DNA from: Syntrophus aciditrophicus SB
GTDB taxonomy: Bacteria; Desulfobacterota; Syntrophia; Syntrophales; Syntrophaceae
Length of the DNA stretch: 64,000 nucleotides
NCBI RefSeq assembly: GCF_000013405.1
Contig: NC_007759.1
Span: 372,001-436,000 of the forward strand
Direction: 5' to 3'
The notes under the pieces are model-generated. The model worked only from the letters and a program-made list of their open reading frames with translations. It ran no database searches and had not been told where the DNA came from. The position numbers and the translations under genes were made by a program. Below, piece after piece: positions 3,054-47,367 of this stretch (within the stretch, counting starts at the first letter, position 1; every line of letters starts with the position of its first letter).

Positions 3054-3148
3054 CGAATTCATTATTACAATGACTCCGCAGACCTGAAACGGAGGATAAA
3101 ATTCATTGTTCGAGACAGGCATGACCAATCGAATCAAGGAGGATGGAC

Positions 3149-3397
3149 ATGGTGGATAAACTGAAGATCCGGGAATTCATTCAAACGGAAATCATGAAGA
3201 AGGGGGATCTCTCCGGAGTGAAGGACTCGGATTCACTCATTGAATCCGGGATCATCGACTCCCTCGGCATACAGATTCTGCTGGAATACCTTGAAAAGTC
3301 ATTTTCCGTATCCATCAGCGATGATGAGCTGGTTCCGGAAAACTTCGAGTCAATTGACGCCATCGCGGAGTTCATCGGCAAGAAGCAGGCGGGTTGA
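3149..3397 (+). CDS. Acyl/peptidyl carrier protein
   Basis: This 82-residue acidic four-helix carrier protein contains the phosphopantetheine attachment motif DSLG in the context GIIDSLGIQ (Ser at about residue 38). The ATG at 3149 is preferred to the in-frame ATG at 3143, because the ribosome site AAGGAGG ends at 3142 and would abut the earlier codon. A stand-alone carrier next to an adenylating ligase and a flavin dehydrogenase is expected to hold the substrate as a thioester while it is oxidised. It would need a phosphopantetheinyl transferase encoded elsewhere. It is the first gene of the compact cassette running to 10241. Confidence 0.9.
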   Translation: MVDKLKIREFIQTEIMKKGDLSGVKDSDSLIESGIIDSLGIQILLEYLEKSFSVSISDDELVPENFESIDAIAEFIGKKQAG

Positions 3398-3463
3398 CCC
3401 AAAACCGGGCGGATTTCGATCCTCTCCGCAGCCGAAGAAAATTAAACTCTATGGGTACATATC

Positions 3464-4474
3464 ATGACTGACAAGAAGAGCGTCTCATCATCAGCCGTGG
3501 GCATCGTCGCGATGGCCTGCTGTTTTCCGGAAAAGATTCTGCCGATAAGCGAGATCTGCCTGCAGGAAGGGATCGACCCCGACTTCATCCTTGAAAATGA
3601 ACTCGATATCGGACAGGTCCGTGTTTTTGAAGGGGAGTGGCGGTCGGATCCGGCGGTTGCCGCGGCGAAGGAGTGCCTGTCACGGGCCGGCCTGAAGCCG
3701 ACGGATATCGATGTGATCGTTGACTTCTCCGTTCTGCCGCAGGATTACGTGGTCCCCGCCTGGAGCATGAGCAATAAAATTCAGTATGATATCGGGGCCG
3801 AGCACGCATTCAATATCGGATTCGGCGGCGGAGGCGTCACGAATCTGCTGGCAGCCTTCAAGTTCGTGTCGGCGCTGATCAAGGCCGATGACGGCGTCAG
3901 AACCGCGCTGCTGATTGCCAGTGATGTATCCATCCCCCGGAACAGGGTCATCAATCCCGATCAGCCCATGACGATCCTCGGCGATGGCGCGAGCGCCCTG
4001 ATCGTGTCCGACAGCGCGGACGTTCTGGAAATCCTTGAAACCGAAATTTCTTCCGACAGCTCCAGGCACGATGTCTTCAACATCCCCGGCGGCGGTCTGG
4101 CACATCCGGACCGTATCGATCTGTATCGGGTGAAGATCGATCCCCTCAAATATTCGGTCTCTTCCTCTTTCGACGCCCTGAAGCAGCTGAGCCGCAAGGC
4201 CGCTGATCTGGCAGGAATATCTCTTGATGAAGTGAATCATTTCATCGGACCGAATATCTCCGGAAAAGATCAATCCCGGTTTGCAGAACTGTTTCATCTT
4301 TCCGACGCCGATCCGTTTGGAAAGAACAGGCGGCAGTATGGACACGTGCAGGCAACGGATCTTGTAATCAATCTCTCGGATTTTCTGGAGAAGCAGGCTG
4401 GGCGGATGAGGGAATTCGGGCTCGTGTGTTCCCATGGGTGGGGACATTCGAGTGGAGCAATGCTGATTAAATGA
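3464..4474 (+). CDS. KAS III-like protein lacking the catalytic triad (first of a pair)
   Basis: The length (336 residues) and layout match FabH-type 3-oxoacyl-ACP synthase III, including the AF...LL.ASD core and the C-terminal half with the GHVQ block. Aligned by eye to E. coli FabH, the nucleophile Cys112 position is Gly122 (in a GFGGGG run), the His244 position is Pro263, and the Asn274 position is His294 (GHVQATD instead of GNTSAAS). It is therefore unlikely to perform normal decarboxylative condensation. The family also contains non-condensing acyltransferases acting on carrier-bound pyrrole acids. It lies 66 bases after the carrier gene and 24 bases before its own paralogue, suggesting a heterodimer. 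The ribosome site is weak. Confidence 0.82.
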   Translation: MTDKKSVSSSAVGIVAMACCFPEKILPISEICLQEGIDPDFILENELDIGQVRVFEGEWRSDPAVAAAKECLSRAGLKPTDIDVIVDFSVLPQDYVVPAWSMSNKIQYDIGAEHAFNIGFGGGGVTNLLAAFKFVSALIKADDGVRTALLIASDVSIPRNRVINPDQPMTILGDGASALIVSDSADVLEILETEISSDSSRHDVFNIPGGGLAHPDRIDLYRVKIDPLKYSVSSSFDALKQLSRKAADLAGISLDEVNHFIGPNISGKDQSRFAELFHLSDADPFGKNRRQYGHVQATDLVINLSDFLEKQAGRMREFGLVCSHGWGHSSGAMLIK

Positions 4475-4498
4475 CCACGTGAATGAAGAGGAACGGAT

Positions 4499-5506
4499 AT
4501 GGATATTGGCATCCTGGCTGAGGCCTATTACCTCCCGCCGAGCAAAAAAAAGGTTCAGGACATATTGGACGCAGAGAACATTCCTTTCGGGACCTTCGCA
4601 AAAAATGTCGATTTCCGGCGTGACATAGGAATTGAAGAGGTCCACGTCACGGACGAAATGCCTTCGGAAGTGGCTGTGAAAACCGCAAAAAACGTTATTT
4701 CGAAAAGCGGGATATCCGGGAGTGAAATCGACCTCATCATTGATTTCACGAGTCTTCCTCAGGATTACATCGGTCCGACATGGTCGGCGGCCGGGCTTGT
4801 TCAGGAAGCGATCGGCGCGGATCGGGCTTTCTGCACGGCGCTCACGGTGGGGGGCTGCGCCAGTTATCATTTCGCGATGCGATCGGCCCTTGCCCTGATG
4901 CGCAGTGACGAAAAGATCAATACGGTTCTTCTGGTCGCGGGAGACAGAACCCCCGACCTCAACAAAACCTATTATCCCATAACCGTGGCCAGTGATGGAG
5001 GAGGGGCCCTGATTCTGAAAAAGGGATGCGACCGGGCCGTCATACTGGGCATTGAAACCATTTCGATCGGACGCCTGCACGACGTGTGGTATGTCCCGGG
5101 GCTGGGCAGGAAAAAGCCGGATGAAGAGGCATCGGAAACCCTGATCCATATGTACTGCAATATGAAAAAGTTCAATGAAGGAGTCATCATCAGGAATTTT
5201 TTCATGTTCAGGAAAGTCATCAACAAGCTGTTGAGCAGGATCGGCATGACCATGGATGACATCGATTATTTTGTTTATCCGACCTTCTCGACATGGGATC
5301 AGAAGTACTTTTGTGAAGCCTTGAATATTCCCCGGGAAAAAGTATCGACAGAGGGACTCCGTCACCGGGGACATGTTCAGGAAAGCGACATGGTGATCAA
5401 TTATGCCCGCGCTGTGGAAGACGGCGCCATCAAAAAGGGCGACATCGTCATGGTGGTTTCCAACGGTGCGGGTTTCGCGTGGTCCGCGGTCGTCGTCAGG
5501 CATTAG
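4499..5506 (+). CDS. KAS III-like protein lacking the catalytic triad (second of a pair)
   Basis: This 335-residue FabH-fold protein is clearly paralogous to its upstream neighbour. Both share SLPQDY, the 40-residue core between AF and the following Asp, and GHVQxxD. The position of the nucleophilic Cys is Val117; a Cys occurs three residues later (Cys120), one helical turn away. The His position is Pro261 and the Asn position is His292. The same Pro and His replacements in both paralogues point to a conserved new function rather than decay. Known split KAS III pairs such as PqsB/PqsC keep one intact active site; this pair appears not to. A ribosome site (AGAGGAACGG) precedes the ATG. Confidence 0.82.
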   Translation: MDIGILAEAYYLPPSKKKVQDILDAENIPFGTFAKNVDFRRDIGIEEVHVTDEMPSEVAVKTAKNVISKSGISGSEIDLIIDFTSLPQDYIGPTWSAAGLVQEAIGADRAFCTALTVGGCASYHFAMRSALALMRSDEKINTVLLVAGDRTPDLNKTYYPITVASDGGGALILKKGCDRAVILGIETISIGRLHDVWYVPGLGRKKPDEEASETLIHMYCNMKKFNEGVIIRNFFMFRKVINKLLSRIGMTMDDIDYFVYPTFSTWDQKYFCEALNIPREKVSTEGLRHRGHVQESDMVINYARAVEDGAIKKGDIVMVVSNGAGFAWSAVVVRH

Positions 5507-5570
5507 GGTGGGCGCATCGGGTTCAGACGCCCCTATCCGGAAGTGAAAAGCGAGAGAAAGGAACTCAGCG

Positions 5571-6230
5571 ATGTTTGAGTATACTCGCATGAGACTGATG
5601 CAGGCCCGCGAATTTGTCGCAACCAAGGGGCTGTCACAGTATTTCAGAGAAAGGGTATATGTTCAAAGAAAGGCGATCGCCGTCCGGAAAGATCTGGCGG
5701 AAGCCCGATTTACCGCTGACCTGTTCGAGCGCGGCGATGTCCGGTTTATCGAGGTCACTCCAGAGAATTCTTTCGAACGTCATGGCGGATATGTGGATGA
5801 AAGCCGGAAATTGAAGGCGTTGTATTACCTTGAACAGGGATATCGGGGTTACGCCCTTGTCCGAGGCAGAAATATCATCGGAGACATCTGGTATTATGCT
5901 CCTGATCAGGCGGGCTGTGCGCGTGTCCATCCTGATTTGTACTGGCTGGGAATCGAACTGGGGCCGGGCCAGGTGTATGAATTCGACATCTATTTCACGC
6001 CGGATGAAAGAGGGACCGGTTTATCCGCCGGTTTGCAGAACAGCGCCGGGTATTCGCAATGCCAGAAAGGATATTCTACTGCTTTTGCCTATTACTGGGC
6101 CGATAATGTGCCGGCGATCTGGAATACCCGGGTGATCAACAAATACAAAGAATGGAAGCATATTAAAGTCAGCCGCTGTTTTCTTTACCCAGGCAGTCTG
6201 CGATTACTGCTCCGGCAGCTGAACCTGTAG
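5571..6230 (+). CDS. GNAT-like acyltransferase in the carrier-protein cassette
   Basis: This 219-residue soluble protein carries a GNAT-type motif A, PDERGTGLSAGL (RGTG loop for the CoA pyrophosphate), near residue 145, after a hydrophobic YEFDIYF strand. The C-terminal segment AYYWADNVPAIWNTRV resembles the late helix and strand of acetyltransferases. The first 60 residues are basic and helical without a recognised domain. GNAT enzymes move an acyl group from CoA, or sometimes from a carrier protein, to an amine or hydroxyl. Here the donor could be the cassette's own carrier. The ribosome site GAAAGGA precedes the ATG at good spacing. A short terminator-like hairpin follows the stop at once. 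Confidence 0.65.
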   Translation: MFEYTRMRLMQAREFVATKGLSQYFRERVYVQRKAIAVRKDLAEARFTADLFERGDVRFIEVTPENSFERHGGYVDESRKLKALYYLEQGYRGYALVRGRNIIGDIWYYAPDQAGCARVHPDLYWLGIELGPGQVYEFDIYFTPDERGTGLSAGLQNSAGYSQCQKGYSTAFAYYWADNVPAIWNTRVINKYKEWKHIKVSRCFLYPGSLRLLLRQLNL

Positions 6231-6231
6231 G

Positions 6232-6250
6232 CTCCCGCGAGGGAGTTTTT
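6232..6250 (+). terminator. Short intrinsic-terminator-like hairpin
   Basis: CTCCC (6232-6236), loop GCGA, GGGAG (6241-6245), then TTTTT. The stem is only five pairs but all-GC at the base of a U run, and it begins one base after the stop codon at 6230. It may attenuate transcription between the KAS III/GNAT genes and the ureohydrolase. Confidence 0.45.
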
Positions 6251-6338
6251 CCGTATTCTGTCGGCTGTGGCAAATGCCGGGGCTTCGGTTTGCTGGACTG
6301 TTGTCGCCGATGAACTGAATCGAATAAGGGGGATATCC

Positions 6339-7340
6339 ATGAATCGCAAGAACGTTCCGATGGTCGCGAACAGAAAAGGCTCTTTGCCACGAGTCTATGG
6401 AGATACGCCTTCGTTCCTGGGGGTCGATGTCGTTGACATCAATCGCCTTGAGAAGGGCAGGGACGTGATCTTCTCCGGGGTGCCCTGGGAAGGAACGGTG
6501 ACCTGGGGGTCTTTTTCGGGCTGCGAGCTCGCGCCGCGGGCAATCCGGCACAGCGCGGCGCGATACGGCGGATTTCTGCCGGAATACGAGCTGGATTTCT
6601 TTGACTATCTGACTGTCGCAGATGCCGGGGATGTGTCCGTTGATCCGAACAGTCCGGAAAAAACGATGAACAACATCTATTCTTCCATGGACAGGATTTA
6701 CGGGAAGGGAAGCATTCCAGTCACGGTAGGCGGCGATCATTCCATTACCCCGCCCATTGTGGATGCCCTAGGCAACAACGCGAAGGGCCCTATCGGCATT
6801 CTTCATTTCGACGCTCATCTGGACAACGCGAAGGTTTTCGGTGAAGATCTGTTCGCCCGCTGCAGTCCCCTGCATCGCATCGCCCAGAATGAAAAAGTGA
6901 GAACGGAAAGCATCGTTCATATCGGCATTCGGGGGCCGAGAAATTCTCCCTCCCAGTTGGAGTATGCCTGGCAGATAGGGGCGAGAGTCTTCAACATCCG
7001 GGAGATCAGAGAAAGAGGCATGACTTCGGTCATCGACGAAGCGCTCAGGATCGCGTCAAACCAGACTGAACATGTGTATGTGACAATTTGCAGCGACTGC
7101 ATTGACGCGTCCTTCAATCCCGGAGGCCCAGCGGATTTCAACGGCCTGTTTCCTCACGAATTGTTCTCGGCTCTCTACACGATCGGAAGGGCGGGGATAT
7201 CCGGTTTGGACTACGTGGAAGTCTATCCGATTCAGGACCCGAATTCGTTTTCTTCTCACCTGGCTTCCTGGGCGATCATCCATGCCCTCGTGGGGCTGGC
7301 CTCGGGAAAGAAAAAAAAGAGCGAAACGGCAACGGCCTGA
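6339..7340 (+). CDS. Agmatinase/arginase-family ureohydrolase with altered active site
   Basis: This 333-residue protein has the ureohydrolase fold signature: GGDHS (His134) and FDAHLDN (Asp158, His160, Asp162). The last metal-binding segment is changed. Where agmatinases read S-x-D-x-D, this protein reads T-I-Cys251-S-Asp253, so the first of the two bridging Asp residues is Cys. The catalytic His of the (S)HG loop also appears to be Arg174. Normal family members hydrolyse a guanidino group to urea and an amine through a di-manganese centre. The changes suggest another substrate or chemistry. The ATG at 6339 follows AAGGGGG. The C-terminus is short and basic. Location inside the carrier cassette argues for a biosynthetic, not catabolic, role. 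Confidence 0.8.
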   Translation: MNRKNVPMVANRKGSLPRVYGDTPSFLGVDVVDINRLEKGRDVIFSGVPWEGTVTWGSFSGCELAPRAIRHSAARYGGFLPEYELDFFDYLTVADAGDVSVDPNSPEKTMNNIYSSMDRIYGKGSIPVTVGGDHSITPPIVDALGNNAKGPIGILHFDAHLDNAKVFGEDLFARCSPLHRIAQNEKVRTESIVHIGIRGPRNSPSQLEYAWQIGARVFNIREIRERGMTSVIDEALRIASNQTEHVYVTICSDCIDASFNPGGPADFNGLFPHELFSALYTIGRAGISGLDYVEVYPIQDPNSFSSHLASWAIIHALVGLASGKKKKSETATA

Positions 7341-7481
7341 CGCGGTCGGTTTCCCAGGGGAGGCGGGTTCTGCGGTTCCGTCCGCCTCAGGACGAGAAGG
7401 TTCAAACGACATCTGAAAGTTGCGTGTTGCAGGGATTATTCTGAATTCTTTCATTTTTCCTGAGACAACGGGAGGGAAAAC

Positions 7482-8627
7482 ATGGATTTTTCATTGACCG
7501 CCGAACAGATCAGATTCAAGGAATCCGTCGTGGAGTTCGCGCGTCGCGCCCTTAAAAACGAGGCGCTCGAACACGGCGACCCGCGGGAGTTTTACTGGGA
7601 AGGATGGCGCCGGTGCGCCGAATTCGGCATTCAGGGCATCGCGATGCCCAAAGCTTACGGGGGCCTTGAACTGGATCTGCTGACCTGCGTTCTCATCATG
7701 CAGGGGCTTGGCTACGCGTGCAGGGACGCCGGTTTGATCTTCTCCCTCAATACCCAGATCTGGACGTGTGAATGCCCCATCCTGAAATTTGGAACGGACG
7801 AGCAGAAAGAAAAGTATCTGGGGCGACTGATCAGCGGCTCCATCGTCGGCGGCCACGCCATGACGGAACCGGATTCCGGCTCCGATGCCTTCAGTATGAA
7901 GACCCGGGCGGTCAGGGACGGCGACAGGTACATTCTCAACGGGACGAAGATTTTTATCACCAATGCCCCCATCGCCGATATCCTTCTCGTCTTCGCCGTA
8001 ACGAACGAGCAGAAAAAATTCGGAGGCGTTTCCGCCTTCATCGTTGAAAAGGGATTTCCCGGATTCTCCGTGGGAAAGCCCTTCAGTCTCATGGGACTCA
8101 GGAGCTGCCCCATCGGGGAAGTCATCCTGCAGGACTGCGAGGTTCCCGCCGAAAACAGACTCGGGAGCGAGGGAGCGGGCTCGGCCATTTTCAATTCCGA
8201 AATGGAGCAGGAAAGGAGCTGCCTGTTCGCCTCCCAGCTCGGCGCCATGGAAAAGATCCTGGAGGATTGTGTGCAGTACGCGAAAGCGCGATCTCAGTTC
8301 GGGCAGCCCATCGGAGATTACCAGGCCGTATCCCATAAGATTGCGGACATGAGGGTCCGGATCGAACTGTCCCGGCTGATTCTCTATCAGGTGGCCTGGA
8401 TGAAGGCTTCCGGGAAACGGGCGCCCGTCGAATCTTCCATTGCCAAACTGTACGTCAGTGAAAGTTATGTTCAGACCTGCATGGATGCCCTTCAGATTCA
8501 TGGCGCCTATGGTTATTCCACGGAGTTTCCCATCGAGAGGAATCTCCGTGATTCCATCGCCGGAAAAATCTATTCCGGAAGCTCCGAGATTCAGAGAAAT
8601 ATCCTGGCAAGCTTTCTGGGGTTATAG
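7482..8627 (+). CDS. Acyl-CoA-dehydrogenase-type flavoprotein (carrier-bound substrate likely)
   Basis: At 381 residues this is a full-length acyl-CoA dehydrogenase with the N-terminal helical domain, the GGHAMTEPDSGSD flavin/substrate strand near residue 125, and the C-terminal helical domain with QFGQPIG and QIHGAYGY. The usual catalytic Glu in the YEGT motif is Ser365 (YSGS). Instead Glu244, in MEQERS, falls where isovaleryl-CoA dehydrogenase has its base. Pyrrole-forming prolyl-carrier dehydrogenases belong to this superfamily too. Sixteen bases separate it from the adenylating ligase, so the two are surely co-transcribed. The expected role is FAD-dependent alpha,beta-oxidation of an aminoacyl group held on the carrier at 3149. 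GGGAGGG precedes the ATG. Confidence 0.85.
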   Translation: MDFSLTAEQIRFKESVVEFARRALKNEALEHGDPREFYWEGWRRCAEFGIQGIAMPKAYGGLELDLLTCVLIMQGLGYACRDAGLIFSLNTQIWTCECPILKFGTDEQKEKYLGRLISGSIVGGHAMTEPDSGSDAFSMKTRAVRDGDRYILNGTKIFITNAPIADILLVFAVTNEQKKFGGVSAFIVEKGFPGFSVGKPFSLMGLRSCPIGEVILQDCEVPAENRLGSEGAGSAIFNSEMEQERSCLFASQLGAMEKILEDCVQYAKARSQFGQPIGDYQAVSHKIADMRVRIELSRLILYQVAWMKASGKRAPVESSIAKLYVSESYVQTCMDALQIHGAYGYSTEFPIERNLRDSIAGKIYSGSSEIQRNILASFLGL

Positions 8628-8642
8628 CGGAGGGGATAAAGA

Positions 8643-10241
8643 ATGCCGAACCACCTACTGCACCATCAACTGACCAATACGTCCTGGCGATGCCCGGAAA
8701 AAGAAGCGGTCATCGCCGTTGATCGGTCGATATCCTACCAGGAACTGGAGGAGCGGAGCAATCAGCTTGCCTCGGTCCTCATGCGCGCCGGTGTTCAAAA
8801 GGGAGACCGGGTCGGGATATTTCTTCCCAAGTCCATCGAATCCCTGATCAGCCTGTTCGCTATTCTGAAAAACGGCTCCACTTATGTTCCCATCGATCCC
8901 AGGCTGCCTTCCGGCAGAATAGAGTACATTCTTCAAAATTGCGACATCGCGTGCATGATTTCCTCCTCCGCAACGTTGAAGAAAGTCCTGGCGGATTTGA
9001 GCGATGACCTTGCCCTGAAAAAGGTCATTCTTACCGACTGGGATGGGGATGAAAACGAAAAGCCGGAGGGACATCCGCAATTCATCCCCTGGACGAGCAT
9101 CAGGGATGAGGATGGACAGAGGAATCCGGGACCGGACATCGCCGATGTCAATCCCGCCTACATCCTCTATACATCCGGATCGACGGGCACCCCCAAGGGG
9201 GTGGCCATCTCCCACTTGAATTCCCTCACGTTCGTCAATATGGCCGCTGAATATTTCGGCATCGATACTCCGGACAGGCTGGCGAGTTTCGCCCCCCTTC
9301 ATTTCGATCTGTCGATCTTCGACATTTTTACCGCGGTCCGTCAAGGGGCCTCCATTGTCCTCGTCCCTGAATTTTATTCCACGTTTCCGATAAGACTCGC
9401 GGAATATATCGATAAACAGCGCGTCACCGTCTGGAATTCCGTTTCTTCCGTCCTCATCATGCTCGTGGATATGGGAAAGCTCGAGAAGTGCGGCTTTGAA
9501 ACGCTCAGGCTCATTCATTTTTCCGGTGACATTCTTCCTCCCAGATACCTCCGGGAATTGAAAAGTCATATGAAAAACGCGGACTTCTACAATATCTACG
9601 GCCAGACCGAGGCGAACTCGTCCATGTGTTATCACATCGGCGCCGTTCCGCCGGGTGATCACTGGAAAATCCCCATCGGCAAACCGTTTCCCAATTTTGA
9701 AGTTTTCGCGGTCAACGAGGATGGGCGGAAAATATCCTCGCCCGGCCAGGAGGGTGAACTTTACGTCAAAAGCTCCACGGTTGCCGTCGGGTACTGGAAT
9801 GACGGAGAAAGAACGAAGGAGCGATTCACTTCCAATCCCCTGGATCCGGCTGACGCGTCACGATGCTATAAAACAGGCGATATTGTAAAACTGGATGACA
9901 AAGGAAATTTTGTCTTCGTGGGGCGCAAAGACTCCATGGTGAAGAGCAGGGGGTACCGCATCGAGCTCAATGAAATCGAAATCATTCTGAACGGCCATCC
10001 CCTGGTGAGACAGGCCGTGGCCGTCGCGGCGCCCGATGAAAAAATAGGCCACCTAGTGGTCGGTTTCGCGTCGCTCGTTGAAGGAGAATCCCTGTCGGAA
10101 ATCGATCTCCTTCGTTACTGTCAGGATCGTCTGCCCAAATACATGGTTCCGGAATCGATTCACTTTTTGAAGCGCCTTCCGACGACGTCGTCGGGAAAAG
10201 TGGACCGGAAAGCGATGGAAAAAGAGGCGCTGGAAGGGTAG
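8643..10241 (+). CDS. Amino-acid adenylating ligase (prolyl-carrier-ligase/DltA type)
   Basis: This 532-residue stand-alone adenylation enzyme shows the NRPS-type core motifs in order: YTSGSTGTPKG near residue 175, HFDLSIFDI (Asp222, the residue that usually binds the alpha-amino group), NIYGQTE, YKTGD, GRKDSMVKSRGYRIE, and the C-terminal SSGKVDRK with the catalytic Lys. Asp222 makes an alpha-amino acid substrate likely. The layout matches enzymes that load proline or D-alanine onto a free-standing carrier. I cannot assign the amino acid from the sequence alone. It should activate the substrate with ATP and load the carrier encoded at 3149. GGAGGGG precedes the start. Its stop is followed within 15 bases by a glycosyltransferase gene. 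Confidence 0.85.
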   Translation: MPNHLLHHQLTNTSWRCPEKEAVIAVDRSISYQELEERSNQLASVLMRAGVQKGDRVGIFLPKSIESLISLFAILKNGSTYVPIDPRLPSGRIEYILQNCDIACMISSSATLKKVLADLSDDLALKKVILTDWDGDENEKPEGHPQFIPWTSIRDEDGQRNPGPDIADVNPAYILYTSGSTGTPKGVAISHLNSLTFVNMAAEYFGIDTPDRLASFAPLHFDLSIFDIFTAVRQGASIVLVPEFYSTFPIRLAEYIDKQRVTVWNSVSSVLIMLVDMGKLEKCGFETLRLIHFSGDILPPRYLRELKSHMKNADFYNIYGQTEANSSMCYHIGAVPPGDHWKIPIGKPFPNFEVFAVNEDGRKISSPGQEGELYVKSSTVAVGYWNDGERTKERFTSNPLDPADASRCYKTGDIVKLDDKGNFVFVGRKDSMVKSRGYRIELNEIEIILNGHPLVRQAVAVAAPDEKIGHLVVGFASLVEGESLSEIDLLRYCQDRLPKYMVPESIHFLKRLPTTSSGKVDRKAMEKEALEG

Positions 10242-10255
10242 GAGGAATTCAACCC

Positions 10256-11590
10256 GTGCGTATTCTTGAAATCGGCATGTTCTATGAACCGGATCTCGGC
10301 CCCGGCGCTCCCCTGTGCACGATGCTCAGCAGAGAGCTGGCCAGTCTGGGGCATCAGGTCACGGCTCTCGCCGCGGTGCCGCATTATCCAACCGGACAGG
10401 TTCAGAGAGCGTTCCGCGGCAGATGGCTCCGGACGACGGTTGAAGACGGGGTCGAGGTGGTGCGGGTTGGGCTTCCTTCGGTAAACCGGGCCGATCTCGT
10501 TCAGCGTTTTACCCAGTTTTTCTGCTATCAGGTGGGAGCCGCCCTGTCGGGACTGACCAAGAGATATGACGTTGTTCTCGCGGCGAATCCCTTTCTGATG
10601 GTGTGGCTTCCCTTTGCGCTGCTGGGAGCCCTGAAGCATAAACCGATCGTCTATATCGTACAGGATTTATATCCTGATGTCGGCATCAAACTGGGGGTCT
10701 TCAAAAACCGGTTCGTAATCAGCGCCGCAACCGCCCTGGAACGCTATTGCCTGGTGAATTCCGATGTCGTTCACATCATTTCCGATTCATTCCGGCCCAG
10801 CCTGCGCGCGCTCGGCGTATCAGACGACAAGATGGCCCTGGTGTACAACTGGGTCGATACCGATTTGGTCCGTCCCTTGCCCCGGAATAATGCATTCGCT
10901 CAGGAACATGATTTAGGGGGTCGATTCGTAATTCTCTATGCGGGAAATATCGGGTTTTCCCAGGATCTGGACAAGGTCCTGGATGCCGCCCAGGCTCTCG
11001 CGGATCAGGATGAAATCCTGTTCCTGTTCATCGGCGACGGGGTGGGGCGGGAACCTCTGATCGCGGACGCGAAAAAGAGGCGGCTGACGAATGTGAAGTT
11101 TCTGCACTACCAGCCGCGGGAACGGCTGCCGGAAGTGCTGGCTTGCGCGGATGTTTCACTGGTCATTCTGCGCGAGGGAATCGGTACGGCCTCTGTACCA
11201 TCGAAGGCTCTTTCCATCCTGGCAAGCGGCAGGCCGATGGTGGCCAGTGTGGACGAAGGAAGCGACCTCTGGAATCTCGTGAAGGAAGCCGAGGCGGGGC
11301 TGTGCATCCCTCCCGGCAGTTCGAACGATCTTGTCCAGGCTATCCTGACCCTCAAGCAGGACAAGGACCTGCGGGAACGTCTGGGGAACAACGGGCGGAC
11401 CTGGGCAGAAAAGCATCATTCCCCCCGGGTCGCCGCGAGAAGGTTCGAAAGTTTATTGCGGCAAGCCATTGCATGCAAAACGCGTGATGGCATCTGCCCG
11501 GCGAAAGCGTCAACTGAGCGGTCATCTTTGATTTCAGGCAGCCAAAACGAAATCGATGGTCTTAACCGAGGTGGAAAAGATGGAACCTGA
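10256..11590 (+). CDS. Glycosyltransferase, GT4 family (WbuB-like)
   Basis: This 444-residue cytosolic GT-B enzyme has an N-terminal Rossmann domain beginning EIGMFYEPDLGPGAP and a C-terminal nucleotide-sugar domain with YAGNIGFSQDLDKVLDA and PSKALSILASGRPMVA. The PSK variant in place of the usual EX7E is seen in WbuB-type L-fucosamine transferases. The start is GTG at 10256, preceded by GGAGGA. The gene directly follows the adenylating ligase and overlaps the next gene slightly, so the carrier cassette and this transferase appear to share one transcript. It probably adds one sugar to the lipid-linked repeat unit. The last 30 residues are low-complexity and may be a poorly conserved extension. 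Confidence 0.85.
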   Translation: MRILEIGMFYEPDLGPGAPLCTMLSRELASLGHQVTALAAVPHYPTGQVQRAFRGRWLRTTVEDGVEVVRVGLPSVNRADLVQRFTQFFCYQVGAALSGLTKRYDVVLAANPFLMVWLPFALLGALKHKPIVYIVQDLYPDVGIKLGVFKNRFVISAATALERYCLVNSDVVHIISDSFRPSLRALGVSDDKMALVYNWVDTDLVRPLPRNNAFAQEHDLGGRFVILYAGNIGFSQDLDKVLDAAQALADQDEILFLFIGDGVGREPLIADAKKRRLTNVKFLHYQPRERLPEVLACADVSLVILREGIGTASVPSKALSILASGRPMVASVDEGSDLWNLVKEAEAGLCIPPGSSNDLVQAILTLKQDKDLRERLGNNGRTWAEKHHSPRVAARRFESLLRQAIACKTRDGICPAKASTERSSLISGSQNEIDGLNRGGKDGT

Positions 11591-19734: not shown

Positions 19735-20433
19735 ATGAAAAAGCCCCTCCTTATCGTTGAGCTGGCCGGCCCCGCCGGAGTGGGAAAATCGACTTTGACC
19801 AGAGCGTTGAGCGAATCCAATGCAAACATCCGGATCGGTGAGGTCCCATACATCCGCGACGGAAGAAATTCCGGTTTTTATCTCTGGAATGCGCTTCTGC
19901 TGTTTCCCGTTTTCGCCGCGGTTGCCCTTGACAGAAGCGACCGGGCGCTTACGCCTCAGCAGATGGTGGCCATGACCATCCTCAAGGGATGGCGCCGGCG
20001 GCTGAGAGACGCGGATTCAGGAGAGGGCAAAGTGATTGTTCTGGACCAGGGACCTGTTCACATGCTGTCCGATCTGCTGCGATTCGGTCATAAAAATCTG
20101 CGCTCCACGGCTTCTTCCTGGTGGGATCGGACCTGTCGGGATTGGGCTGAAATCCTGGATGTGATCGTTTGTCTCGACGCGCCCGACCATCTTCTGCTGA
20201 AACGCGTGAGAACAAGGGAAACGAAAAACCATCGGATCAAGACATACGGCGATGAGGAGGCTGTCCGGTTTCTGGCGATGTGCCGCCGGACGCAGAACGA
20301 AACCCTCTCATCCCTGCGCGCCTGTTCCCGTGAGTTGAACGTGGTTGAGTTCGATACCTCCCAGCTGTCCCTGGGCGACACGATAGAAAAAATCCGGACA
20401 CTGTTTCTAAATTCCATCAAAAAGCAGAGATGA
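19735..20433 (+). CDS. Thymidylate-kinase-like P-loop protein
   Basis: This 232-residue protein carries a Walker A GPAGVGKST near residue 15, a VIVLDQGPVH strand near residue 100 and a lid-like Arg-rich segment (KRVRTRETKNHR). It is a kinase of the thymidylate-kinase class without the usual DRY. Its open frame ends at 20433 and overlaps the next start (ATGA), so it is tightly coupled to the Wzx flippase gene. Genes of this class are frequent in capsule and exopolysaccharide loci, without an established reaction. It is only distantly similar to the C-terminal domain of the 15453 protein. No membrane segment is present. Confidence 0.7.
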   Translation: MKKPLLIVELAGPAGVGKSTLTRALSESNANIRIGEVPYIRDGRNSGFYLWNALLLFPVFAAVALDRSDRALTPQQMVAMTILKGWRRRLRDADSGEGKVIVLDQGPVHMLSDLLRFGHKNLRSTASSWWDRTCRDWAEILDVIVCLDAPDHLLLKRVRTRETKNHRIKTYGDEEAVRFLAMCRRTQNETLSSLRACSRELNVVEFDTSQLSLGDTIEKIRTLFLNSIKKQR

Positions 20434-22013
20434 TGCCTATTTCGAGTCTTAACCGCCCATTGGAATTTGTCTCCGGCCTGCTGGCGGACACTACCCTGAC
20501 CAAGAAGGCCTATCTCAATACCCTGGCGTCCATGCTGGAGTATGCTACGTCTTTGCTTGTCGGTTTTTTTCTGACGCCGTACATGGTGAAAGGGCTCGGA
20601 GATTATTCGTTCGGACTGTGGCAGGTTTTGAGTCGTCTGATCGGCTACCTCTCGCCGGCGAGCGGCCGCCCGACTCACGCGTTGAAATGGACGCTGGCCA
20701 ATCAGCAGGCTTCATCGGACTATGAGCAGAAACGACGCTATGTCGGCAGTGCGTTGGCCGTATGGGCGATTTTCCTCCCGGTCGTGCTCGGACTGGGTTG
20801 CATCGTTGCCTGGTTTGTCCCCGTCTGGATCAAGGCGCCCGCCGAATTTGTCTGGACCGTGCGCGTTGTCGCTTTCGTGCTTGTGTCAAACATCCTGCTG
20901 GACGCGCTTTCATCGATACCCCAGGGGGTTCTGCAGGGTGAAAATCTGGGCTACAAGCGCATGGGGATCACGGCCGGTCTGGTTCTGTTCGGGGGAGGGG
21001 TGACATGGTTTGCCATTTATCTCAAAACCGGCATTGTCGGCGTGAGTTTTTCCGTTCTGCTGAAAACGGTTCTGGCGGGCATCGTCCTGTTTCTGATTGT
21101 CAGCCGTTACGTGAAATGGTTTGGATTCGCCAAGCCCCTGAAAACGGATATGCACGTCATGCTGGGACGCAGCGGCTGGTTTCTCGGCTGGAATCTCGTA
21201 ACGACTCTGCTGATCGCCAGTGATGTCGTGGTTCTGGGGCTGTGCAGCTCGATTGTGGCGGTGACGAACTATTCCCTCACCAAATACGTTCCTGAGATGA
21301 TGATCAGCATTATCGCCAACATCATCTTCGCCATCATGCCGGGGCTGGGCGGCATTATCGGCGCCGGCGACCTGAAAAGAGCCGTCCGCCTGCGCAGCGA
21401 GATTCTGTCCTTTGTCTGGCTTGTTGTAACGGTTATCGGCGCAAGCGTCCTGCTGTTGAACCGGTCTTTTCTCGAACTATGGGTGGGAACGGGCCGGTTT
21501 TCCGGCGCCCTGCCTCATCTGCTGATCGTCGTCGGGGTTATGCAGCTGATTTTCATCCGAAGCGACGCCAACATCATCGACCTGACTCTTAACCTCAGCC
21601 AAAAAGTCCTGCTGGGTTTATTGTCTGTAGCCATTTCGATTTCCGCCGCCAGCGTGATGGTAGGATACTTTCATATGGGAGTTGTCGGCTTGTGCCTCGG
21701 AATCATGAGTGGCCGCCTGATTTTAACAGCGGGCTATCCCCTGCTCATCAGCCGCTTTCTGGATATTCCGCTGTCCGCGCAGATGAAAGGCGTGGTCAGA
21801 CCCATGCTGGTCACGATCCTGCTGTTCGGCAGCGCGCTTTTTCTCGATAACCTGCTGCAGACGATGCGCTGGCCGGGTTTGCACAGCTGGATCGGCTTTT
21901 TCCTTTCCGCGGCATTTGCCGGTGCGGTCGTTCTGATGTTATCTTTCTTTGGAGGCCTGACGCCGGAGCAGCGGGAGAGCATTTCCCGTCGGGTTCACAG
22001 GGCAATTACTTAG
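20430..22013 (+). CDS. Wzx-type oligosaccharide flippase (first set)
   Basis: This 527-residue integral membrane protein has about 12 to 14 hydrophobic segments across its length, the MOP-superfamily layout of polysaccharide translocases. It should move the completed undecaprenyl-linked repeat unit to the periplasmic face of the inner membrane. The start overlaps the preceding stop (ATGA). The gene is followed 18 bases later by a polymerase-like gene, giving a standard Wzx-Wzy pair. A second flippase of a different subfamily is encoded at 49745, so the region holds two export sets. Confidence 0.85.
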   Translation: MMPISSLNRPLEFVSGLLADTTLTKKAYLNTLASMLEYATSLLVGFFLTPYMVKGLGDYSFGLWQVLSRLIGYLSPASGRPTHALKWTLANQQASSDYEQKRRYVGSALAVWAIFLPVVLGLGCIVAWFVPVWIKAPAEFVWTVRVVAFVLVSNILLDALSSIPQGVLQGENLGYKRMGITAGLVLFGGGVTWFAIYLKTGIVGVSFSVLLKTVLAGIVLFLIVSRYVKWFGFAKPLKTDMHVMLGRSGWFLGWNLVTTLLIASDVVVLGLCSSIVAVTNYSLTKYVPEMMISIIANIIFAIMPGLGGIIGAGDLKRAVRLRSEILSFVWLVVTVIGASVLLLNRSFLELWVGTGRFSGALPHLLIVVGVMQLIFIRSDANIIDLTLNLSQKVLLGLLSVAISISAASVMVGYFHMGVVGLCLGIMSGRLILTAGYPLLISRFLDIPLSAQMKGVVRPMLVTILLFGSALFLDNLLQTMRWPGLHSWIGFFLSAAFAGAVVLMLSFFGGLTPEQRESISRRVHRAIT

Positions 22014-22031
22014 GAGTTCAGGAGTCGGATC

Positions 22032-23249
22032 ATGAGTCAGTTAGAAATTTCACCAGTAGAGTCTACGTCGGAGTCTGCATCGGAATATTCCTCGTTCTAT
22101 GTCTGGACGATATCCGGGGCAGCCTTCGTTTATGTCATCGTTGCCTTCGGCCTGAGCGCCATCCCGAGTCTGTCGCGCCTGGCGCTTTATGCATCCGTGA
22201 TGCTTCTGGCGATGCTGATTCTCAGCATGGGAAAACTCAAACTGTCGCTCTGGATGCTCGTGTTGACGCTGTTTTACCTTTATCTCGCCCTGCCCGCATT
22301 GGCTTTGAGCAATGTGCCCATCTACAGACTCAGCACTCTTACCACGGTATTTCTGGGGACGCTATCGATCGGCATTGCTCTGCAAAACAGAATGCTATCC
22401 TACAAAGCGTTAACCTATGGAGCGATCGCCGCCGCGATTATCAATGTTGTGGCTATCTTCGCCGGAGTGGAAACATCCAGTCATGATGTTGAAGCCATAG
22501 GACGTTACTCGGGACTGATGGGAAACGCCAACGCCCTTGCCATCAGTATGGCCCTGGCTGCATTTCTGATATGGCTCTACCCCGAGCGCTTCAGTCGACA
22601 GGTCCGGGCGCTGGGAATATTCCTGGTGCTGTACGGAATGTATATCACGGGGTCGATCAAAGGCGTCCTGATGGCGATGGCATTGTTCGCCCTGGTTTTC
22701 ATGAACCACCTGGTGAAGCTCAGCATGGTCAGAATCCTGGCCTATCTCTCCGCGGCCGCCGCGGCTGTCCTGGCGCTTTACGGGGGCCTTACGGCAATTG
22801 CCGCGAAATACAGCACACAGATCGTCGCGATTGACCGGATTCTGACCGCTTTTGCCGGAGAGAATGCCTCCATCAACGCGCGACTGTCCATGATCGATTT
22901 CGGCCTGAACCTGTGGGAGAAAGCGCCTGTATTCGGATATGGACTCAATCAGTTTGCGACTCTCAGTAAAACCGGTTCCTATGCCCATAACAATTATATT
23001 GAACTTGCCGTATCCGGCGGCATTATCGCGTTGATCTTCTTTTACGCCCTGTACGTCATAATCGCGTGCAACGCGCTGAAACAGTCCAAGGATTTTTGCA
23101 TCCGCCTCCTGTTGCTCGTGGCGACTCTTTTCATGATCGATACCGCAGCCGTTTCCTTTTTAGACAAAGGGATCATGTGCATGGTGGGCGTTCTGCTCGC
23201 TGTTTCCTCCGAAGAAAAGGCAGAGGAAAGCGATAGATATCAAACGTGA
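22032..23249 (+). CDS. O-antigen polymerase/ligase (Wzy/WaaL-like), first set
   Basis: This 405-residue inner-membrane protein has about ten to twelve hydrophobic helices. A periplasmic loop between about residues 270 and 320 contains ARLSMIDFGLNLWEKAPVFG and AHNNYIELAVSGGI, the H-N-x-x-x motif region typical of the Wzy_C/O-antigen ligase family. It should polymerise flipped repeat units or ligate glycan to a carrier. AGGAGTCGG precedes the ATG at good spacing. It is the last gene before a 620-base gap without genes. Confidence 0.82.
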   Translation: MSQLEISPVESTSESASEYSSFYVWTISGAAFVYVIVAFGLSAIPSLSRLALYASVMLLAMLILSMGKLKLSLWMLVLTLFYLYLALPALALSNVPIYRLSTLTTVFLGTLSIGIALQNRMLSYKALTYGAIAAAIINVVAIFAGVETSSHDVEAIGRYSGLMGNANALAISMALAAFLIWLYPERFSRQVRALGIFLVLYGMYITGSIKGVLMAMALFALVFMNHLVKLSMVRILAYLSAAAAAVLALYGGLTAIAAKYSTQIVAIDRILTAFAGENASINARLSMIDFGLNLWEKAPVFGYGLNQFATLSKTGSYAHNNYIELAVSGGIIALIFFYALYVIIACNALKQSKDFCIRLLLLVATLFMIDTAAVSFLDKGIMCMVGVLLAVSSEEKAEESDRYQT

Positions 23250-23872
23250 TAAAATGTCCGTATAAACGGTCACTTGCTATGGTTACCCTCCTGTCTCATC
23301 CCTACAAGTAAGGTTTTTGGAAGTTTAAAATCAGACTCTCCCCGATAGCATCCGGCTGATCAGATTGTTATTATAAGGAAAATTGAGACAGACGCAGCAC
23401 AGGACGTAATCGTTCAGTAACGGTTCAAACCGCAGTTCACACGGTCATTACGATCACGGATCACGTTTTCGGCAACTGTATCGCTGCTTCCCGAAAAGCA
23501 TTCCAGTGATTTCGACACGGCTTGATCTTCTGCAGCATCTCAGAAATTCCAGAATTCGTTCAAACGATTCCACACACTCTTCCCTGCGGACATGCGGAGG
23601 AGAGCCCAGGTCCTGAAAAAGCAGGTTACAGTCAACGTTGTTAAATCGGCAAGCAAGGAACTGACTGCCCGTGTCAGCTCTTTTCCCTGATCTTCAAAGA
23701 GCAAGAATCGCCAGGGAGGTGAATTCGGAGAGGGGAAACGGTTCAGGAGGAAATGATCAAGGAACTCCGCAGGCTGACCCGGGAAACTGATGTCGTCAGA
23801 AAGTGTTCATCCAGGCCTTAATGAGAGTGAGTTTTTACGCTGTAAAAGGGGTTGCGGTTACGAGGGCGGGCC
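23250..23872 (+). other. Non-coding gap, possible transposase scrap at its end
   Basis: No gene, clear promoter or terminator was found over most of this stretch. Near the end, the frame with ATG at 23754 reads QEEMIKELRRLTRETDVVRK and then stops. This resembles the C-terminal coiled-coil of IS3-family OrfA proteins (ELRRL...E...LK) but is only about 30 codons long, so it would be a remnant at best. Confidence 0.3.
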
Positions 23873-25447
23873 ATGGGAATCAGCATCAGCATTTCGGGTG
23901 TTTTAAAGCAGGAAGCCAAACCCGTTAGTGATTTCTTCAAGAGAATTTTCGACATCGTCGTCTCGTTGACGGTGCTGGTTCTCTGTGCGCCTTTTTTTGC
24001 CCTCATCGCGTTGGCGATCACGCGCGAAACACCCGGTCCCGTCTTCTATCGAGGCGCGCGCGTCGGGCGGGGAGGGAAGTGCTTCAAGATCCTCAAATTC
24101 CGCACCATGTACGAGAATCCCCAGAGCTATGCCGGCCCGAGGGTCACCGCGCAGGACGACATCCGGGTCACACCGCTCGGGCACTGGCTGAGGGACACCA
24201 AGCTGAATGAGTTCCCACAGTTCTGGAACGTCCTCAAAGGGGAGATGAGCCTGGTCGGTCCGCGTCCCGAAGACCCGACACTCGCCACGGAATGGCCAGC
24301 TGAGGTGGCGCGGGAAATCCTGTCCGTCCGCCCCGGCATCACCAGTCCTTCCTCCGTCATGTATCGGGACGAGGAAAGCCTGCTGTGCGCCGACAATCTC
24401 ATCAATCAGTATCTGTGCGACCTGAGCCCCAACAAGATCCGGCTTGACCAGCTCTACGTGCGCCATCGCTCCTTCCTGCTCGATCTCGATACGATGCTCT
24501 GGACGGTCCTGCTTTTACTGCCCCGGCTTAGGGCCTATTCCCCTCCGGAATCGTTTTTGATCGTGGGTCCAGTTACCCGCCTGATCAAGCGCCACGTGAG
24601 CTGGTATATTCTGGACTTTCTTGTTCTGCTTTTCTCGATCGGGATTTCGGTCATGCTGCTGCGGGACGTCGCTCCCATCAGAATAGACTGGATCGCGCTG
24701 CTGGAGATGGCCTTTGCCTACCTGGCGCTCTACAGCCTGATCGCCGTCAAGACGGGGGCCAATCTGACCCGCTGGGACAAGGCCACCAACCGCGATGCCG
24801 CCCGTCTCACCATGGCGTGGCTTATCGCCACGGCGGCCGTGGTGGCGATCCATTTCGCGGTAGGGATTACATCCGACCTGAGACGGATCCTGATACTGAT
24901 GTCTTCCATCTTCTTCCTGACGGGAATGCTGCTCGCCCGTTACCGGAGCCGCGTGCTGATCGGGCTGCTCCGGAGCATCGTGATCCGCCGGACCAAGGCG
25001 AAGGCCACGGCGGAACGCGTCCTGATCGTGGGCTCCGGGCGGACCGCCGAGCACGTCCTCTGGCTCCTTGATCATCCGTCCTATTCCCTGAAGTATCAGG
25101 TTGCGGGCATCATCGACGATGACCTCTTTTCGCAGGGGATGAAAGTCTACGGTGTCAAAGTGGTCGGCGAAACGAATAACATCGCCGGGATCGTTAAGGA
25201 AAAGGATGTCGGCTTAGTCATCCTGGCGGACCATCGCCTCGATGAGTCAAGCTATAGTCTATTGCGCGAAGCCCTGAAGGACATTCCCGTCAGGATCGCC
25301 GTTGCGCCCGACCTCTACGGTTCCATGGAAGGTCTGTCCCGGGCCGTGTCGGGCGGCCCTTCGACGCCTGCCCTCGACAGCTTTCAGTGTCGCCACTGTC
25401 TGGCCAGAATCCGCTCCCACGTGGAGACGCCGGCCGACGGGAAGTAA
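23873..25447 (+). CDS. Polyprenyl-phosphate sugar-phosphate transferase, reversed domain order
   Basis: The protein has 524 residues. The catalytic domain of the bacterial sugar transferase family comes first: a membrane hairpin near residues 25-50, KFRTM near residue 75, then LNEFPQFWNVLKGEMSLVGP and RPGIT. After residue 210 come four transmembrane segments and then a Rossmann-like CoA_binding_3 domain (RVLIVGSGRTAEHVLW near residue 385). In WcaJ, WbaP and EpsL-type enzymes this order is the opposite. It should start repeat-unit synthesis by moving a sugar-1-phosphate to undecaprenyl phosphate at the inner membrane. ATG at 23873 is preferred over the TTG at 23852, because GAGGG lies before it. 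Confidence 0.85.
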   Translation: MGISISISGVLKQEAKPVSDFFKRIFDIVVSLTVLVLCAPFFALIALAITRETPGPVFYRGARVGRGGKCFKILKFRTMYENPQSYAGPRVTAQDDIRVTPLGHWLRDTKLNEFPQFWNVLKGEMSLVGPRPEDPTLATEWPAEVAREILSVRPGITSPSSVMYRDEESLLCADNLINQYLCDLSPNKIRLDQLYVRHRSFLLDLDTMLWTVLLLLPRLRAYSPPESFLIVGPVTRLIKRHVSWYILDFLVLLFSIGISVMLLRDVAPIRIDWIALLEMAFAYLALYSLIAVKTGANLTRWDKATNRDAARLTMAWLIATAAVVAIHFAVGITSDLRRILILMSSIFFLTGMLLARYRSRVLIGLLRSIVIRRTKAKATAERVLIVGSGRTAEHVLWLLDHPSYSLKYQVAGIIDDDLFSQGMKVYGVKVVGETNNIAGIVKEKDVGLVILADHRLDESSYSLLREALKDIPVRIAVAPDLYGSMEGLSRAVSGGPSTPALDSFQCRHCLARIRSHVETPADGK

Positions 25448-25516: not shown

Positions 25517-26512
25517 ATGGGAAGTTTCTGGGCGGATAAGAAAGTGCTGGTAACCGGCGCCGGTGGATTTATCGGCAGTCACCTGGTGGAGCGGCTTGCC
25601 GGGGAAGGGGCTTCAGTGCGGGCCTTCGTCCGCTACAACTCCCGTGCCGACGCGGGGCTGCTCAAGCTGGCGCCTCCGGAGATTCTTTCCCGCATCGAGC
25701 TGATCGGCGGAGATCTGCGGGATTCCGATGCCGTGCGCAAGGCCGTGGAAGGCTGCCGGATTGTGTTCCACCTGGGTGCGCTCATTTCCATTCCCTATTC
25801 CTATTATCATCCCGTGGAAGTGGCCGAGACGAATCTCATGGGGACGTTGAACGTGCTTCTCGCCTGCCGCGACCTCGGCGTGGAGCGCCTGATCCACACG
25901 TCCACCAGCGAAGTCTATGGCACCGCCCAGCGCGTCCCCATCGACGAGGCGCATCCCCTCCAGGGGCAGTCCCCCTATTCCGCCAGCAAGATCGGGGCGG
26001 ACAAACTGGCGGAGAGCTTCTTCTGCGCCTTCAGCGTGCCGGTGGTGACCGTCCGTCCCTTCAACACATTCGGCCCGCGCCAGTCCGCCCGCGCAGTCAT
26101 CCCCACGATCATCACCCAGGTGCTTGCCCGGCAGAGCATCCGTCTGGGAAATCTCGAAACCACCCGTGATTTCACCTACGTAGACGACACCGTCAGCGGT
26201 TTTCTCTGTGCCGCGCAGAAGGAGGGCATCGAAGGCATGACCTTCAACCTGGGGACGGGGTCGGAGATTGCGATCGGCGTTCTTGCCCGGACAATCATCG
26301 AAAAAATCGGAGTCCCCGTTTCAGTCGAACTGGATCCGGAGCGGCTCCGTCCGGAAGGCTCCGAGGTGATGCGGCTTCTGTCCGACAATTCGCGGGCCCG
26401 TTCCCAACTCGGGTGGGGGCCCGAAGTGGGCCTGGATGAAGGACTCAACAGGACCATCGCCTGGATTCGGGAGAATCTGGGGAATTACCGCATCGGCGTT
26501 TATGAATTATAG
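25517..26512 (+). CDS. NDP-sugar 4,6-dehydratase, extended SDR (LegB-like)
   Basis: This 331-residue protein has the NAD-binding GAGGFIGSH motif, the active site TSTSEVYGTAQ in which Ser-Glu replaces the Asp-Glu of RmlB, and YSASK with the catalytic Tyr and Lys. This variant is characteristic of GDP-/UDP-GlcNAc 4,6-dehydratases such as LegB. It would give a 4-keto-6-deoxy sugar nucleotide, the substrate for the aminotransferase two genes downstream. AGGAGGGAAAG precedes the start. It heads a tight three-gene run with the nucleotidyltransferase and aminotransferase. Whether the nucleotide is GDP or UDP cannot be told. Confidence 0.83.
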   Translation: MGSFWADKKVLVTGAGGFIGSHLVERLAGEGASVRAFVRYNSRADAGLLKLAPPEILSRIELIGGDLRDSDAVRKAVEGCRIVFHLGALISIPYSYYHPVEVAETNLMGTLNVLLACRDLGVERLIHTSTSEVYGTAQRVPIDEAHPLQGQSPYSASKIGADKLAESFFCAFSVPVVTVRPFNTFGPRQSARAVIPTIITQVLARQSIRLGNLETTRDFTYVDDTVSGFLCAAQKEGIEGMTFNLGTGSEIAIGVLARTIIEKIGVPVSVELDPERLRPEGSEVMRLLSDNSRARSQLGWGPEVGLDEGLNRTIAWIRENLGNYRIGVYEL

Positions 26513-26539
26513 TATGAATTATAGAAGGGAGGGCAACCT

Positions 26540-27262
26540 ATGAAAGCCGTAGTCCTGGCAGGCGGAAAAGGCGCACGCCTCGCGCCTTACACAAAAATTC
26601 TTCCCAAACCGTTAATGCCCATAGGGGACATGCCCATTCTGGAAGTCCTCCTGCGGCAGATGAAAGTGGCCGGGATCGACCATGTCATCCTCACCGTGGG
26701 ACATCTGTCCGAACTCCTGCGCGCCTTCTTCCAGGACGGCAGTCAATTCGGCGTCGACATTTCCTACAGCTACGAAAAATGTCCGCTTGGAACCGCCGGG
26801 CCGATCTCCCTGATCGACGGCCTGGACGAGACGTTCCTGGTGACCAACGGCGACGTGCTAACCACCCTGAGCCTGCGCGAGCTGATCGGCTTTCACCGGG
26901 AGCAGAAAGCCGCCGCGACCATCGCCGTCCATCAGAGGCAGACGAAGATCGACCTGGGCGTCATCCAGTGGAACGGCAACTACGAAGTGAAAGGCTACAT
27001 CGAAAAGCCGGTCTATGACTACACCGTCAGCATGGGGGTTTATGTGTTCGAGCCGAAGGTCCTTTCCTATATCCCCCACGGGGAATACCTCGATTTTCCC
27101 GATCTGGTGAAAAAGCTGATCGCCGCCGGCGAAAAAGTGGTCGGCTACCGGTTCCACGGCTACTGGGAAGATCTGGGGCGGCCGGATGATTACGAGAGGG
27201 CGTCGCGCGACTTTGAAAGCATGCGCGAACAGTTCCTTCCTGGCATGGAATGCAGAGGGTGA
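26540..27262 (+). CDS. Sugar-nucleotide pyrophosphorylase (RmlA/PtmE-like)
   Basis: This 240-residue protein opens with the pyrophosphorylase signature VVLAGGKGARLAPYTKILPKP, has the metal-binding Asp in VTNGDVL, and ends EDLGRPDDYERA, typical of NDP-hexose pyrophosphorylases. It joins a sugar-1-phosphate to a nucleotide in the cytosol. Unlike many homologues in amino-sugar pathways it has no N-terminal CBS domain. It lies 28 bases after the dehydratase and five bases before the aminotransferase, so it probably supplies the activated HexNAc for those two enzymes. A ribosome site (AGAAGGGAGG) precedes the ATG. Confidence 0.85.
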   Translation: MKAVVLAGGKGARLAPYTKILPKPLMPIGDMPILEVLLRQMKVAGIDHVILTVGHLSELLRAFFQDGSQFGVDISYSYEKCPLGTAGPISLIDGLDETFLVTNGDVLTTLSLRELIGFHREQKAAATIAVHQRQTKIDLGVIQWNGNYEVKGYIEKPVYDYTVSMGVYVFEPKVLSYIPHGEYLDFPDLVKKLIAAGEKVVGYRFHGYWEDLGRPDDYERASRDFESMREQFLPGMECRG

Positions 27263-27266
27263 CATC

Positions 27267-28418: not shown

Positions 28419-28419
28419 A

Positions 28420-31575: not shown

Positions 31576-31578
31576 AGA

Positions 31579-31765
31579 CCGCTGATCCACCGGTTCAGCG
31601 CCTATCGGGAATACAGTGTGATACGCAGAGGATAAAACTGCCGATTGCGGAAGAGGTTGCCGCGGGAATTGTCACACTGCCGCTGTATCCCACGACGACG
31701 GACGAAGACGTGCTGGACGTGGTTAACTGTATCACTGGAGGGATCCTGCCGAAGGGGGTGCTGAA
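31579..31765 (+). pseudogene. Duplicated 3' end of the aminotransferase gene (broken)
   Basis: About 185 bases here match 28240-28419, the end of the aminotransferase gene, from the CCACCGGTTCAGCGCC segment through CTGGAGGGATCCTGCC. Extra bases near 31610 shift the frame to an early TAA. This scrap marks the left end of a tandem duplication unit that also contains the following giant gene. It still supplies that gene's upstream sequence and ribosome site. Confidence 0.88.
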
Positions 31766-47337: not shown

Positions 47338-47367
47338 TCATCGGCCAGGCAACGGTCAAAGGTATTG

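Follow-up and report, generated by a model that had tools for sequence, protein, structure and literature searches.

The window, a stretch of 64,000 nucleotides corresponding to positions 372001-436000 of the single-contig genome of Syntrophus aciditrophicus SB (3,179,300 bases), contains at 3149-10241 a cassette of seven genes, all on the + strand and separated by intergenic gaps of 14 to 141 bases (Table 1). Profile models and ORF coordinates bear out the initial annotation in that all seven named gene families are present, intact and co-directional. Its placement of the genes in a polysaccharide locus likewise holds, as they sit inside a Wzx/Wzy locus and a GT4 glycosyltransferase gene begins 14 bases past the end of the ligase gene. 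The surroundings comprise glycosyltransferases, hexapeptide transferases, a flippase, a Wzy-like protein, an initiating sugar transferase and amino-sugar genes, the last of which are, by their profile matches, a possible source of an amino-sugar acceptor.

Table 1. Features of the cassette and its polysaccharide surroundings, in window positions.
Feature	Position	Strand	Evidence
Stand-alone carrier protein	3149..3397	+	PF00550 22.9 bits, above cut-off; serine in SGIIDSLGI
KASa, KAS III-fold without conserved active-site Cys	3464..4474	+	ACP_syn_III-like; weak FabH-family matches
KASb, KAS III-fold with conserved Cys (GGCASYH)	4499..5506	+	ACP_syn_III-like
GNAT-like protein, putative acyltransferase	5571..6230	+	Motif only
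Arginase-family ureohydrolase, Cys-variant (TICSDCID)	6339..7340	+	PF00491, 223 bits
Acyl-CoA-dehydrogenase-type flavoprotein, prolyl-carrier dehydrogenase group	7482..8627	+	PigA/RedW models, 4irn
Stand-alone amino-acid adenylation ligase, pocket DLFNHSISSK	8643..10241	+	TIGR01733, above cut-off
WcaI-like GT4 glycosyltransferase	10256..11590	+	PF00534, NF007640
Wzx-like flippase, Wzy/ligase-like protein, initiating sugar transferase	20430..25447	+	Polysaccharide locus
LegB-like dehydratase, nucleotidyltransferase, PseC-like aminotransferase	25517..28418	+	Matches below curated cut-offs

Predicted enzymes of the cassette

The carrier gene could start at 3143 or 3149, of which the latter is better placed, behind AAGGAGG. 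The DSL motif is kept in all relatives aligned, and a free carrier with the DSL serine, a feature of the PltF/PltL/PltE-type triad, is thus present here. The ligase is matched best by the amino-acid adenylation domain model TIGR01733 (369.6 bits, above cut-off), with TIGR03098 second at 367 bits, below its cut-off of 592, and the best solved-structure match of its core region is 6o6e, the proline ligase PltF. The ten specificity positions were read by alignment and compared with pockets from solved proline ligases, since a text search found no proline pocket code. The code, whose extraction had been proposed in the initial annotation, was obtained as DLFNHSISSK and lacks a match to proline: the same reading gives DLLYLALVC for PltF and DLFYIAWVC for a second solved proline ligase, 7thn, and the window ligase does not fit the resulting pattern D-L-[LF]-Y-[LI]-A-[LW]-V-C. 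Asp235 is kept, whereas positions 278, 299, 301, 322, 330 and 331 all differ from PltF, which speaks against proline, the precursor of the pyrrole initially suggested. Judged by its pocket residues, the ligase is atypical as a proline ligase, and pyrrole is therefore an unlikely product for the window, although pocket codes are imperfect predictors of substrate and a proline analogue could still fit. Arg or Orn as the substrate is disfavoured by the lack of an acidic pocket residue beyond Asp235, which is a weak argument.

The flavoprotein is by its sequence matches nearest to the prolyl-carrier dehydrogenases. Its best curated model is the PigA prolyl-carrier dehydrogenase (437 bits, below the cut-off of 500), the RedW model scores 405 bits (below the cut-off of 650), and the best solved structure is the prolyl-ACP dehydrogenase 4irn (AnaB; 433.9 bits). 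The helix-G Glu of 4irn, the catalytic base of this group, is kept.

The ureohydrolase, whose open frame starts at 6267, shares its fold family and most metal ligands with agmatinase, guanidinopropionase and proclavaminate amidinohydrolase. GGDHS and DAHLD are kept, but the DxD pair reads CSD, so the set of six ligands is incomplete. Unlike in the guanidino hydrolases, Cys replaces the first Asp of the pair in the whole subgroup (all five members aligned), and the protein thus belongs, by alignment, to a subfamily of the arginase family with a putative Cys-for-Asp metal-ligand exchange.

The GNAT-like call at 5571-6230 stands as far as the motif PDERGTGLSAGL is concerned, with no Pfam or NCBIfam match to accompany it. 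The fold model of the protein is unusable (pLDDT 38.6) and a plasmid search for the gene gave nothing; a 38-41% identical protein occupies the same place in one related locus, L062. The GNAT assignment is accordingly weak.

Of the two KAS III-like proteins, KASa has G/V at the Cys position, where its relatives have S/C, and has both His244 and Asn274 replaced, while KASb keeps the Cys but has His244 exchanged for Pro and Asn274 for His (RGHVQESD). None of the FabH Cys-His-Asn triad is thus left in KASa, and the Cys alone in KASb, the fold model of which (mean pLDDT 74.5) matches FabH, DpsC and ChlB3. The pair resembles the heteromeric FabH-like enzyme PqsBC, in which two adjacent genes also encode KAS III folds, one without and one with the catalytic Cys. 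All three catalytic residues are missing from PqsB, and PqsC retains both the Cys and the His (PMC4807248); KASb differs from PqsC in having Pro in place of His244, its own His standing at the Asn274 position.

Related gene sets in other genomes

Close ureohydrolases (51-67% identity) are found in 4 of the 297 genomes of the phylum that were searched. In two genomes, both of one other genus (loci L061 and L062), the gene lies in cassette order, with the succession carrier, acyltransferase, ureohydrolase, dehydrogenase kept; the ligase adjoins the set in L061 and lies three genes further on in L062, and the transferase slot is taken by the GNAT relative in L062 and by a hexapeptide protein in L061. 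Identities to the window are 46-53% for the carrier, 63-66% for the ureohydrolase, 68-70% for the dehydrogenase and 53-56% for the ligase, and the ligase pocket is identical. These loci hold genes for an XrtA-type ATPase, Gfo/Idh, an aminotransferase, a sugar dehydrogenase, WecB and a flippase. The conserved order argues against a chance grouping, and since both relatives belong to one genus, only two independent lineages carry the ureohydrolase-type set among glycan genes (the window, and L061 with L062).

The remaining two of the four ureohydrolases lie near BpsA (L063) or a SpeD-SpeE fusion (L064), and no PF00491 match besides the cassette ureohydrolase occurs in the genome of the window or in either relative. 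As a sole match in all three genomes, with lone subfamily members near polyamine genes, it may serve polyamine metabolism, and the cassette would then consist of carrier, ligase, dehydrogenase and transferase only, with an unrelated agmatinase-like enzyme among them. Such an arrangement is rather unlikely, given that the gene stands between transferase and dehydrogenase in either lineage and goes together with one particular ligase pocket. For the same reasons, the ureohydrolase is likely a true cassette member, as first annotated. The genome of the window has a single match to the spermidine synthase family (G000:C1:707751-708284), and this contains one in-frame TGA.

The KAS pair fares differently. 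The co-occurrence of the gene set extends to carrier, acyltransferase, ureohydrolase, dehydrogenase and ligase, but the pair is absent from the L061 and L062 loci, and neither genome has a close KASb (best 29% identity). A KASb scan of 84,980 species genomes yielded ten loci, all in Alphaproteobacteria (Stappia, Mesorhizobium and others), at 61-65% identity, and KASa is 37-42% identical to its alphaproteobacterial counterpart. The initial view of the pair as a cassette member is thus not supported, and by gene distribution it is an extra outside the conserved glycan cassette. Other KAS candidates were rejected: the distant KASb relatives within the same order (L002-L015) are for the most part PRK06840-like genes belonging to ABC-transporter and CoA-ligase clusters, and further hits in the phylum (L016-L021) are lone KAS genes adjoining crotonases.

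The alphaproteobacterial loci read contain a dehydrogenase (46-48% identity; not in the stretch of L031 that was covered), a carrier, a B12 radical-SAM protein, KASa and KASb. The radical-SAM protein is of the TIGR04190 type by model in L025 and by eye in others; L025 also holds a 3-hydroxyisobutyryl-CoA-hydrolase-like gene, with TRAP transporter and LysR genes nearby. A related ligase (35-41% identity), with the pocket DLFQFAIDVK or near, is present in 5/5 of the genomes; in four of them it shares a contig with the dehydrogenase, at a distance of no more than about 12 kb, and in the fifth it is on another contig. No ureohydrolase or glycan genes were seen in the loci read. From these identity percentages, on which the reading rests, the window cassette looks like a mosaic of a glycan cassette and a KAS pair related to the alphaproteobacterial module.

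In Alphaproteobacteria the carrier, the ligase, the dehydrogenase and the KAS pair thus have relatives with no glycan genes seen nearby; their neighbours are instead TRAP transporters, a LysR regulator, a hydrolase and a B12 radical-SAM protein. This would fit a set that makes a free natural product and is merely placed among glycan genes in the window. Such a reading is unlikely, however, as both lineages found to have the ureohydrolase-type set carry it in a glycan locus, and the set itself showed neither a transporter nor a release enzyme.

Carrier, prolyl-carrier-type dehydrogenase and stand-alone ligase also recur near other glycan genes, with a proline pocket in at least two loci. The pocket DLFYLALVCK is found in the Desulfobacterota loci L084, L085 and L086 and in the Microvirga plasmid locus L091. 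Pfam matches mark L084 and L091 as glycan loci, and in L091 the carrier, proline-pocket ligase and dehydrogenase (8054-11146) lie inside an exopolysaccharide locus. In L085 (9132-16111) a proline-pocket ligase and a dehydrogenase are accompanied by two carriers and by a TIGR04190-type B12 radical-SAM protein reminiscent of CloN6, and the set as a whole is reminiscent of the CloN set. Hydrolases of the exosortase-linked kind are matched weakly in this locus, and what may be an initiating transferase lies at its edge; L086 has no clear glycan genes. A fourth pocket type, DIFFIGSMCK, belongs to roseobacter plasmid glycan loci, where the order carrier, dehydrogenase, methyltransferase, ligase stands beside polysaccharide export and sugar amidotransferase genes; L090 (7564-11741) and L095 (14721-18898) represent the same polysaccharide locus on plasmids of two roseobacter genera. 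Since the triad recurs near glycan genes with a canonical proline pocket, gene sets for oxidised aminoacyl groups do exist in glycan loci. The proposed tie between carrier-bound amino-acid oxidation and glycan loci is therefore upheld, both by L061 and L062 and by the proline-type sets, and the general idea fits these other loci better than the window itself, since the proline pocket is found there and DLFNHSISSK here.

Proposed function and known systems

From the observed gene content, conservation, and pocket and active-site residues, a full series of reactions, their order and a glycan target may be proposed. The cassette would make a carrier-bound oxidised amino acid and give it to a sugar of the polysaccharide of this locus, a reading with about an even chance of being correct. 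First, the ligase would adenylate an alpha-amino acid (Asp235 being kept), other than plain proline, and load it onto the carrier. Next, the flavoprotein would remove hydrogens across C-alpha/C-beta of the thioester, and the Cys-variant ureohydrolase would cleave a C-N bond in a guanidino or amidino group, whether of the free precursor or of the bound residue. Finally, the GNAT-like protein, replaced by a hexapeptide transferase in one relative, would acylate a nucleotide sugar or a lipid-linked sugar at an amino or hydroxyl group. The KASa/KASb pair, which would have joined the cassette in the window's lineage, is probably one heteromeric enzyme with the acyl group on the KASb Cys and may act in carrier-to-acceptor transfer or in one extension step.

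The nearest known systems are those of clorobiocin (CloN1-CloN7), PltF/PltL/PltE and anatoxin (AnaB/C/D), which likewise combine a stand-alone adenylation ligase, a free carrier and a prolyl-carrier-type dehydrogenase. In clorobiocin the protein that moves the acyl group between carriers is KAS III-like, and the acyl group ends on a sugar. The window differs from such sets in its non-proline pocket, the extra ureohydrolase, the second KAS-like partner and the polysaccharide locus. The XrtA/exosortase-linked loci with a TIGR03098 ligase, a carrier and hydrolases also place an AMP-forming ligase and a carrier in exopolysaccharide loci, whereas in the window TIGR03098 stays below cut-off and a dehydrogenase and a ureohydrolase are present.

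By analogy with clorobiocin, proline would be loaded and oxidised to a pyrrole-2-carboxyl or pyrroline-carboxyl group, which the KAS III-like proteins would then move to the sugar. While the dehydrogenase is nearest PigA/RedW/4irn, the ligase core is nearest PltF among solved structures, proline-pocket sets exist in other glycan loci (L085 with two carriers and the CloN6-reminiscent radical-SAM protein), and CloN2 does transfer the pyrrole acyl group between carriers (PMC11218499), this is very unlikely for the window with its deviating pocket, the co-variation of that pocket with the ureohydrolase and the single carrier gene of the cassette.

In line with the initial annotation, no described polysaccharide pathway with this gene set was found in the literature searched, coverage of which was partial. 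Under the preferred reading, an oxidised aminoacyl group given to a sugar, oxidised amino acids would be among the decorations that bacteria put on their surface sugars. More broadly, and tentatively, the window may represent a family of carrier-bound amino-acid oxidation sets in polysaccharide loci with at least three pockets near glycan genes (proline, DLFNHSISSK and DIFFIGSMCK), in which the Cys-ligand ureohydrolase and the heteromeric Cys/no-Cys KAS pair of the window type would contribute to a surface glycan decoration of a new, oxidised aminoacyl kind. If so, the chemistry of small-molecule antibiotics and toxins would also be used on the surface polysaccharides of bacteria, in versions for several substrates, and the gene set would provide a signature by which such glycans could be found, together with new aminoacyl-tailoring enzymes, among them a metal-site variant of the arginase family.

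Other features of the window

Two proteins with a mutual identity of 36%, encoded at 1521-2480 and 11556-12458, bracket the cassette; they are FemAB/GNAT-like by eye and have no convincing Pfam match. Two giant repeat proteins at 28384-34981 give tandem-95 and M36-peptidase-linked repeat matches. A DltB/MBOAT-like O-acyltransferase gene and the gene that follows it (47365-49744) suggest a second glycan acylation system, and a PEP-CTERM/VPLPA-CTERM sorting-domain protein (42491-43063) points to an exosortase system in the window's genome.
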